Positions 56,215 through 59,550 of a stretch of 64,000 nt of DNA are shown one piece after another. Position 1 is the stretch's first letter. Every line of letters starts with the position of its first letter. The DNA is from Sphingomonadales bacterium (GTDB lineage Bacteria > Bacteroidota > Bacteroidia > Chitinophagales > Chitinophagaceae), in the NCBI GenBank assembly GCA_016872195.1, contig VHAT01000002.1, positions 1-64,000 of the forward strand, given 5' to 3'. The notes under the pieces were generated by a model, which worked only from the letters and a program-made list of their open reading frames with translations, was not told the DNA's origin and searched no databases. The position numbers and the translations under genes were made by a program.

Positions 56215-57675
56215 TTATAACTTGGAATAGACCACCCGCAGCCTTAATCTTTTGGCAGGATTTAGGAAATTACCGCCGGCGATCACGATCCGTCCGTATC
56301 CGACCTGATCGGATATCCCGATTAGGTTAACACGACGGAATTGAGAAGAGTAAGCATAGGTCCGAAGCGGGGCTTGTATACGAAGTGTAAAATTGGTAGA
56401 ATCGTTGGTGACGATACGCTGTACATAACGGGTAATATCGAAACGGTACGTACTATCCCTTAATAAAAGACCCCCAAACCGAGCATAATCGTAGCTAAAG
56501 GAGGTAAAATTATCCCTTGGGTTCATGTCAAAATCAAAAAGTCTGGCAGTATCGCCACGCTCATTGATGCGATCAAGGAAAAGAGCCTTGGGGTAGAAGA
56601 AAAAGGAGCGCTGCTCTGTCTCCAAGGGGGTCACCAATAACTCGGCCCGATGAATAACCGCATTTTGAAGGGTGTCTAGCCCTGGTATCCTGATGGTCGC
56701 ATAAGAACCCGGAGCAGATTGCAGGTACACCTTATCGTCATTGACCTGGTTATTGGCCAGGTACTGTGCGTAAGCACCTCCCGGTGTTCTATTAACCAAA
56801 TTGGCCTGTCCCCCTTTGGAATGATAGAATTCAGTAAGCGTGGTATCGATGGTCCCGTTCTTTTGTACCCGATAGTAAACGATCAATTTTGTCTTGATGT
56901 CGGAAGGCGAAAAGTACGTTAGCGCATTACCGCTATTATCGGACTTTACGGCAAGACCCCTAAAGGAGCAAAGAAACGAAGAGTCACTTCTGTATGCACC
57001 ATTGGAAGTTGTACTGGTATCGTAGTTGGCAAAACGGCTACCTAATTGCGAATTCAGGCGGATGCGAACAACACCAGCCAGTTTCGAGGTATCTCTTTTA
57101 CGGATAAAGGGGATGCTATCACTAAGCTGTTTTATTCGGTAGGTCTTTGACCCCAGCTCAGCTCCCCGTGTAGCAAAGGCGGACTGGTCATACCGATATA
57201 AAGAAGTGTCATTAAAACCCGATTGCTGATCGATCTCAAAGACTCGAAGCGTTTGAAAGCTATTGCTATCACCATAATATCCTTTGTAGGAAAGAGATAA
57301 GATGACCGAATCGATACCGACTACGGAGTCCTTCCGATAAAAAGGATAAAACATAGCCGTTGGGGGCAAAATGGTAAAGAAGGCATCGGCATGTGTCTTG
57401 CCGAATTCCCTATCATCATCAATATGACCAAGGGCCAGGTCGTCCGAATAGAAGACTTTATTGGAATCAGTGAAAAGAAAATTATTGGTGTTGGCCTCTA
57501 AAAAGGTCTGAAAGGTCCGAATATTATCAATTACCGGAAGCACATCGCCTCCCAGCTCGGTTGGGTCGTTGATTTTGGTGCAGCCAATAACACCCACAAG
57601 CAGGAATGCAAAGGAGCTAATCCATACTAACGTTGTTTTCCGGTGCAAGGATAGAAAAGAGGAATTTCGCATCAC
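56215..57675 (-). CDS. DUF4270 family lipoprotein
   Basis: Lipobox LLVGVIGC; CTKINDPTELGGDVLPVIDNI and Bacteroidota DUF4270 layout. Confidence 0.85.
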   Translation of the reverse strand: MMRNSSFLSLHRKTTLVWISSFAFLLVGVIGCTKINDPTELGGDVLPVIDNIRTFQTFLEANTNNFLFTDSNKVFYSDDLALGHIDDDREFGKTHADAFFTILPPTAMFYPFYRKDSVVGIDSVILSLSYKGYYGDSNSFQTLRVFEIDQQSGFNDTSLYRYDQSAFATRGAELGSKTYRIKQLSDSIPFIRKRDTSKLAGVVRIRLNSQLGSRFANYDTSTTSNGAYRSDSSFLCSFRGLAVKSDNSGNALTYFSPSDIKTKLIVYYRVQKNGTIDTTLTEFYHSKGGQANLVNRTPGGAYAQYLANNQVNDDKVYLQSAPGSYATIRIPGLDTLQNAVIHRAELLVTPLETEQRSFFFYPKALFLDRINERGDTARLFDFDMNPRDNFTSFSYDYARFGGLLLRDSTYRFDITRYVQRIVTNDSTNFTLRIQAPLRTYAYSSQFRRVNLIGISDQVGYGRIVIAGGNFLNPAKRLRLRVVYSKL

Positions 57676-58487
57676 TTCGACGCAAGGTCGTTATAGAGTT
57701 GTAAATAGTCTGTTAAATCTCCCTCGGGTTGGAAAGGAATGGTTTTCTTCCCTTTAACCTTACTGAATTCCTCGGATAATTTCTTATCGATCTTGGCCGC
57801 CCCAAACGTAATGGCATCCGCATAACTGGCCGCTCCCCTGAATAAAGCAAGATTAGTACCCTCTTTGTAAGGTTCTAAGTCTTTATCCTTTAAACTGGCA
57901 TGAATGAGGGCTTTTTTGATAAACCCTGCCCCTAACTTTTCTTTGAAAGTAGTTTCGCCAATGGTGTAGATGATCTTACTATGTGCAAAAACAGGTTCTT
58001 TCCGATACAAGGTCTTTAAATAGGCCGGAATCAGAGAGGTCATCCAACCACTACAATGGATTATATCGGGAGGCCATCCAAATTTTTTCACCGTTTCGAG
58101 CGCACCTTTACAAAAGAAAACAGTCCTTAGGTCGTTATCGTCAAACCATTTCTCATTTTCGTCATGAAAGACGAACTTGCGACGAAACAGTTCTTCATTA
58201 TCTAAAAAGTAAACCTGTAGACGGGCACTGGGCAAAGAGGCGACTTTTATTTGCAGCGGCATGTCATCGTTATCCACCGATACATTGATACCGGACAAAC
58301 GAACAACCTCGTGCAAACGATGTCTTCTTTCGTTGATAATACCGAAACGAGGCATGATACAACGGACCTCAAAATTGTTTTCATTTGCCTTGATAGCCAG
58401 TTTGTTGACGATCTCCGAGAACTCAGTGAGCTCCAAATAAGGAGACATTTCGTTGGCAATGAACAGGATACGCTTTTTAGGAGCCAT
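57672..58487 (-). CDS. Glycogen/starch synthase (GT5) N-terminal-domain-like protein
   Basis: 271 aa; RILFIANEMSPYLELTEFSEIVNKLA...VRCIMPRFGIINERRHRLHEV...PPDIIHCSGWMTSLIPAYLK; only the N-terminal half of GT5. Confidence 0.85.
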   Translation of the reverse strand: MAPKKRILFIANEMSPYLELTEFSEIVNKLAIKANENNFEVRCIMPRFGIINERRHRLHEVVRLSGINVSVDNDDMPLQIKVASLPSARLQVYFLDNEELFRRKFVFHDENEKWFDDNDLRTVFFCKGALETVKKFGWPPDIIHCSGWMTSLIPAYLKTLYRKEPVFAHSKIIYTIGETTFKEKLGAGFIKKALIHASLKDKDLEPYKEGTNLALFRGAASYADAITFGAAKIDKKLSEEFSKVKGKKTIPFQPEGDLTDYLQLYNDLASK

Positions 58488-58495
58488 AAGGGCTG

Positions 58496-58503
58496 CAAAG
58501 TTA
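58496..58503 (-). promoter_or_regulatory. TAnnTTTG -7 box (TAACTTTG) for GT5-like gene
   Basis: Exact motif; 8 nt before ATG 58487. Confidence 0.55.
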
Positions 58504-58539
58504 ACAAATTAAGGGCATCTATGCAATTTAACCGTTCAA

Positions 58540-59550
58540 ATGTCTAAACGTCTCATTACCATATTACAATACATGTTTTTTTTAGGGCTGGGGCTCTTTT
58601 TCGCCTGGCTTTCCTTAAAAAATGTGGGTCAAACCGATCGCTTGCAGATCCAAAAGTCTTTAGCCGAGTCTAGGCAATGGCTGATCGCCCCGGTCTTTCT
58701 GATGCTGGTTGTTAGCCATTACCTCCGAGCCCTTCGCTGGAGATTATTATTGGAACCCCTTGGTCATCACCCCGGGATCCTGAATACCTTTTTTGCGGTG
58801 CTGATCGGCTATTTGGTGAATCTGGGTGTTCCTCGCTTGGGAGAGGTGGCTAAATGCACCCTGCTGGCACGCTACGAAAAAGTACCTGCCGAGCAGCTGA
58901 TCGGAACCATCATAATAGAGCGCGTAATTGATGCCTTAATCCTATTGCTGGTATTTGCGCTAACCATCGGCTTACAACCCGGTCTATACTACCAGCTGTT
59001 GAATACATTTTTTCCAACTTCCCCATCACAGACAAGCTCCTCCCTCTCTAGGGTGCCTTTACTGATCGTATCTGGCATCGCTGGATCTTTTATTTTTTAC
59101 TGGTTCGCCATCAAAAAAAGAACATTACAAGAGCTGAAACAAGCGGCCAAGATCATCTTACAACGTTTTTATGCGGGCATCGCTTCCATTGGGGCTCTAA
59201 AAAGACGCTTTCTTTTTATCACGCTGACCCTGTGCATCTGGTCGCTATACTTGCTGGCTGGATATATTGGATTCTTTGCTTTTGAAGAGACAGCCGGGTA
59301 TGGTCTTCAGGAGGCGCTAACCATCTTATCGGCTGGTAGTGTTGGGATGATCGCTTCTCCGGGTGGCATTGGCGCTTATGCCTTTTTAATAGAGCGTTCT
59401 ATGCAACTATACGGACTCCCCCATGGTATTGCCCTTGCCTTTGGCTGGTTGCTTTGGCTGGCGCAAACAGGAGTCACCCTGATAACCGGCGTGTTGAGTT
59501 TTATTCTGTTACCCTGGTTCAATAAAAAGAAAGACCCATTGACCGAATAG
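58540..59550 (+). CDS. Lysylphosphatidylglycerol synthase TM region / UPF0104 family membrane protein
   Basis: 336 aa; 8-ish TM segments, HYLRALRWRLLLEPLGH, GYLVNLGVPRLGEVAKCTLLARYEKVPAEQLIGTIIIERVID. Confidence 0.9.
   Translation: MSKRLITILQYMFFLGLGLFFAWLSLKNVGQTDRLQIQKSLAESRQWLIAPVFLMLVVSHYLRALRWRLLLEPLGHHPGILNTFFAVLIGYLVNLGVPRLGEVAKCTLLARYEKVPAEQLIGTIIIERVIDALILLLVFALTIGLQPGLYYQLLNTFFPTSPSQTSSSLSRVPLLIVSGIAGSFIFYWFAIKKRTLQELKQAAKIILQRFYAGIASIGALKRRFLFITLTLCIWSLYLLAGYIGFFAFEETAGYGLQEALTILSAGSVGMIASPGGIGAYAFLIERSMQLYGLPHGIALAFGWLLWLAQTGVTLITGVLSFILLPWFNKKKDPLTE

Follow-up and report, generated by a model that had tools for sequence, protein, structure and literature searches.

The ADP-glucose glycogen/starch synthase GlgA (GT5; PF08323, TIGR02095, PRK14098) depends on catalytic residues that we take, in their E. 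coli numbering and roles, to be K15, D137, H161, R300, K305 and E377. The protein described here, a half-length relative referred to below as half-GT5, resembles GlgA in its N-terminal Rossmann domain, its fold and a similar final helix, but it differs in lacking the C-terminal domain and every catalytic position that we checked. The second system of relevance is the Bacteroidota BAM complex, one subunit of which is the surface lipoprotein BamH, published in 2025. BamH is essential in F. johnsoniae, for which a bamH depletion system already exists (PMC12611786), and a bamH deletion strain of B. thetaiotaomicron exists as well (PMC12578637). The F. johnsoniae study made use of the fjoh_0824 promoter, and bamH itself is Fjoh_0823, the adjoining locus number (PMC12611786); going by the locus numbers, this promoter use fits an operon headed by a half-GT5 orthologue.

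Our search of the open-access literature for a study of half-GT5 itself gave only a remark on a 'GlgA-GT5 fragment' in a review (PMC11046441), a single sentence that does not touch on the neighbour, the origin or the loss of catalysis. This fragment is presumably the same gene, conserved in the phylum. Two further genes are probably family members, judging by locus number and name: BT_4307, a 'putative glycogen synthase' whose locus number adjoins that of Bt4306 (BamH) and which is likened to half-GT5 by number and name only, and PG1042 of P. gingivalis, called either a glycogen synthase or a glycosyltransferase and likened by name only. One study points to BT_4307 as an indication of glycogen storage (PMC10797578), and in a vitamin-B12 probe screen the gene gave a weak signal, 2.6-fold in one column. 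In the open-access literature searched we came across no mention of the link to BamH, the origin of the gene, its retained end helix, its signature residues or its survival without BAM, and the origin, the anatomy and the independence from BAM appear to be new.

In the window, by which we mean the whole stretch of 64,000 nucleotides that was analysed, half-GT5 is encoded on the minus strand at 57672..58487 and was identified from the ORF, Pfam, AlphaFold2 and Foldseek as a putative pseudoenzyme of 271 aa consisting of an N-terminal GT-B Rossmann domain. The Pfam family Glyco_transf_5 (PF08323) covered residues 6-227 (E 1.2e-44; profile positions 1-214 of 239), and the best NCBIfam match was the PRK14098 starch synthase, with residues 5-246 of the query aligned to 6-244 of 489; the score against TIGR02095 (111 of 328 bits) was far under the family cut-off. 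No signal peptide was seen, and half-GT5 should be cytosolic, whereas BamH is located on the cell surface.

Directly downstream of half-GT5, on the same strand, lies a lipoprotein of 485 aa (56215..57672, ATG at 57672, lipobox Cys at residue 31), and its match to PF14092 (4.8e-42) agrees with the initial annotation, in which it had been recognized as a DUF4270 lipoprotein. The profile built from 21 adjacent lipoproteins matched BamH of the solved BAM complexes (9n2d_C, 1e-67; 9hjm_G, 9.7e-41). Judging from these profile matches, the DUF4270 neighbour is BamH, of the same family as the subunit of the described complexes (PMC12611786, PMC12578637; 9n2d, 9hjm), and the window's protein is a divergent member that stays below the equivalog cut-offs (52.6 of 420 bits against the NCBIfam equivalog BamH_fj). 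The lipobox of the window's BamH (57562-57582) contains C31 followed by TKINDP, with one acidic residue in six, which is a weak surface-export signal compared with the published BamH proteins.

The stop codon of half-GT5 and the ATG of bamH (57672-57670) overlap by one base (TGATG); the 4-nt overlap at 57672-57675 described earlier holds only if bamH starts at a GTG at 57675. The promoter previously placed at 58496-58503 could be confirmed as a motif: TAACTTTG (58503-58496, minus strand), 8 nt ahead of the start codon, fits the -7-type element TAnnTTTG, and a -33-type TTG, weak by itself, is located 20 nt further upstream (58524..58526, minus strand). Since 48 of 58 relatives also have the TAnnTTTG motif 5' of their half-GT5 orthologue, in most cases 36-45 nt before its start codon, the promoter in the window is likely real, though unusually close to the start. 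The 8-nt spacing would yield a nearly leaderless mRNA. The divergent neighbour at 58540-59550, 52 nt from the start of half-GT5, encodes a flippase-like LPG_synthase_TM membrane protein.

The alignment with GlgA revealed that K15, the two glycines, D137 and H161 are replaced in half-GT5 by E, T, E, G and G, and that the domain carrying R300, K305 and E377 is absent. The substrate-binding lysine and the glycines are gone from residues 19-23 (ELTEF; 58419..58433, minus strand), where GlgA has KxGGL, and ELTEFSEI, within MSPYLELTEFSEIVNKLA, stands in place of the KxGGLxDV motif that the initial annotation had already described as degenerate. The replacement of every catalytic position checked supports the view that half-GT5 is a catalytically dead pseudoenzyme, as had been suggested before, and neither the residues nor the length of the family would be compatible with a glycogen synthase.

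The AlphaFold2 model of half-GT5 was a confident single domain (pLDDT 92.3, pTM 0.92), the closest solved folds to which, according to Foldseek, are starch and glycogen synthases (6gne, 2qzs, 1rzu). In the alignment with a full-length sister protein, residues of about 252-479 (~228) were missing. At the same time, residues 259-269 of half-GT5 (57681..57713, minus strand) are predicted with confidence to form a C-terminal helix resembling the crossover helix with which full-length GlgA ends. An HMM built from the final helix of 46 full-length proteins gave the half-GT5 tails a median of 3.75 bits, and 42% of them exceeded 5 bits; no unrelated C-terminus (565 scored) and no internal segment (1097 scored) passed this threshold, and 0.6% of shuffled tails did so. 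The tail signal was clear in family f18 and in the window's family (Chitinophagaceae-like) and weak or eroded in other lineages. The gap together with the tail match implies that the C-terminal Rossmann domain was excised internally and the end helix retained. Thus, the alignments show that half-GT5 arose by an internal deletion of ~228 residues and not by simple truncation; of the earlier statement that only the N-terminal half of GT5 is present, the absence of the C-terminal Rossmann domain stands, but the truncation is not a clean one, the last ~12 residues being GlgA-helix-like.

Outside the window's class (Bacteroidia), the same genomic place holds either a half or a full-length GT5. Downstream of the full-length gene come those for a GmhB-like HAD phosphatase, a BamH-like lipoprotein and BamG; in a profile comparison this lipoprotein matched BamH of the class with a probability of 99.9% (E 4.7e-31), and BamG gave an NCBIfam match of 2.4e-70, slightly under the cut-off. 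Among named genomes, 15 loci had a GT5 gene and then bamH, mainly in Ignavibacteria and Kapaibacteria and mostly with HAD and BamG, and Chlorobiaceae had the GT5-HAD pair alone. In eight half-bearing loci outside the class we observed half-GT5, bamH and bamG, often together with another exported protein and enolase, and the HAD gene was absent.

In the tree of N-terminal domains, the half proteins formed one clade (100/99) nested in the bamH-linked full-length GT5 proteins, and canonical GlgA, including the glgC-linked copy of the window's own genome, was separate from it. These results show, as far as phylogeny and gene order can, that half-GT5 descends from a full-length GT5 whose gene already lay upstream of bamH. 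The tree rules out that half-GT5 is a truncated version of the GlgA found in its own genome, and with a single clade independent origins of the half form are unnecessary. Residues 42-64 (58296..58364, minus strand) contain the signature R42, R54, H59, R63 and L64, a combination shared with the bamH-linked full-length proteins but missing as a whole from canonical GlgA; R42, R54, H59, R63 and Q91 are invariant across the bamH-linked lineage, in half and full-length forms alike, and canonical GlgA lacks this set. In the full-length Chlorobiaceae protein, K15, the glycines, R300 and K305 are gone, yet R42, R54, H59, R63 and Q91 are kept. The retention of the signature despite the loss of catalytic residues is our main argument for an ancient second function.

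Several other full-length proteins are of note in this respect. In the four Chlorobiaceae loci sampled, the PRK14098-type 'starch synthase' was the only strong TIGR02095 match in the genome. The full-length GT5 at 627-2102 of locus L120 is degenerate at its catalytic positions (KTE, G, P, M) and seems to represent a further loss of catalysis. In three loci of family f10, the bamH-linked full-length GT5 has an altered motif around E377 (SKFENSAASHL in one of them) and may be heading toward catalytic loss.

All 61 genomes examined from the family had one intact copy of half-GT5, at 54-85% identity. Of 224 good genomes from the class, 222 had the gene, as did all 57 genomes of another draw that overlaps the 224-genome one; the two genomes without it are fragmented assemblies (410 and 300 contigs), and their lack of the gene is therefore uninformative. 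In a comparison with a same-genus genome, dN was 0.117 for half-GT5, with saturated synonymous sites, versus 0.40 for the adjacent bamH. Such conservation shows, on comparative grounds, that half-GT5 belongs to the core genome of the class and evolves under strong purifying selection.

The initial annotation proposed a role tied to the outer-membrane lipoprotein, which would make half-GT5 a dedicated BamH partner that helps BAM assembly from the cytosol as a regulator, chaperone or scaffold. In favour of this, a GT5 gene is linked to bamH in most of the class and also in Ignavibacteria and Kapaibacteria, where bamG is present too, and conservation of the pair was indeed found to be widespread. 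However, in three genomes bamH is located elsewhere and half-GT5 is intact, so that, from gene order, the link is ancient but not obligatory. Moreover, half-GT5 is retained with most of its signature residues (L128 6925-7779) in the reduced, symbiont-like genome G235 (0.49 Mb, single contig), in which a profile search with positive controls gave no match to Omp85/BamA. There was likewise no match to DUF4270, to BamG, or to BamH in an alignment search whose set had no positive control, and local HMM searches of the 447 ORFs of G235 also failed to find BamH and BamG. Inspected by eye, the N-termini of these ORFs included proteins of peptidoglycan, division, glycolysis and amino-acid synthesis. 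G235 is one case, 93% complete and with masked stretches, and the loss of BAM in it rests on absent matches. The retention of half-GT5 away from bamH, and in G235 without detectable BAM, makes a dedicated BAM role unlikely; the two proteins would also reside in opposite compartments, and the proposed tie to the lipoprotein is thus left mostly unsupported.

A role in glycogen synthesis, with half-GT5 acting on GlgA as a regulator or as a subunit, would suit the GT5 ancestry of the protein and the gene content of the window's genome, which has a full-length glgA adjoining glgC, the copy that the earlier work had suggested looking for, and a glycogen-phosphorylase-like gene. However, 7 of 15 genomes of the class had no GlgA match at E<=1e-60 and each of them retained half-GT5, as did G235, which has no other GT5 among its 447 ORFs; we consider a function in glycogen synthesis improbable. 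The stop-start overlap in the window could also mean that half-GT5 is a small upstream gene serving the translational coupling of bamH, its protein being irrelevant, but this is contradicted by an amino-acid conservation exceeding that of BamH, by the invariant residues and by the retention of the gene when unlinked from bamH, and is very hard to uphold. As poor are the chances of an active enzyme or one half of a split glycosyltransferase. GT-B enzymes require two domains, and a partner could be encoded elsewhere, as the initial annotation had allowed; however, the acceptor-side catalytic residues are lost too, and among the 447 ORFs of the reduced genome no GT5 C-terminal half was detected, the sole C-domain match being weak and lying in a 377-aa protein that is GT4-like by its N-terminus. 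Finally, a protein half the length of GlgA might be put down to a frameshift, to an error of sequencing or annotation or to pseudogene decay, the chance of which is negligible given the same length and an open frame with no internal stops in hundreds of genomes.

The explanation that we favour, at a probability of about 0.6, is that half-GT5 is a dead cytosolic pseudoenzyme derived from GT5 and has a basic role other than glycogen synthesis. The N-terminal domain of the ancestral bamH-linked synthase would also have served a cytosolic function that did not involve catalysis, and this second function would have outlived catalysis, the loss of the site being complete in half-GT5 and partial in Chlorobiaceae. 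A ligand or a partner protein probably docks on the face of the former acceptor cleft of this domain, because in the model many invariant residues (E13, P16, P46, G49, N97, D117, N118) lie at strand ends or just after them, a placement along the old cleft that was read from secondary structure and not from coordinates. The basic set R42, R54, H59, R63, K81, R103, K104 and R121 suggests that the ligand or partner is anionic. Half-GT5 could thereby serve some basic process in the cytosol, either as a sensor or as a scaffold, although a ligand sensor specifically is a doubtful, if possible, version of this role. Co-transcription with bamH would couple the level of half-GT5 to envelope growth, for which direct contact with BamH is not required. 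Since the gene survives in the tiny G235, seemingly without BAM, it probably does another basic job. In its fullest form, which we put forward tentatively and hold at somewhat less than even odds, a synthase of the BAM operon was moonlighting, catalysis was lost at least two times, and the remaining domain is essential and phylum-wide, serving a core process that has to do with neither glycogen nor BAM.

Thus, a major bacterial class has a core gene that is labelled a glycogen synthase and used as a marker of glycogen storage, yet by its residues and length it would not be one. Intact, degenerate and domain-deleted forms of GT5 all survive in one type of operon, and half-GT5 would represent a clear case of a metabolic enzyme turned into a non-catalytic, essential-looking protein.
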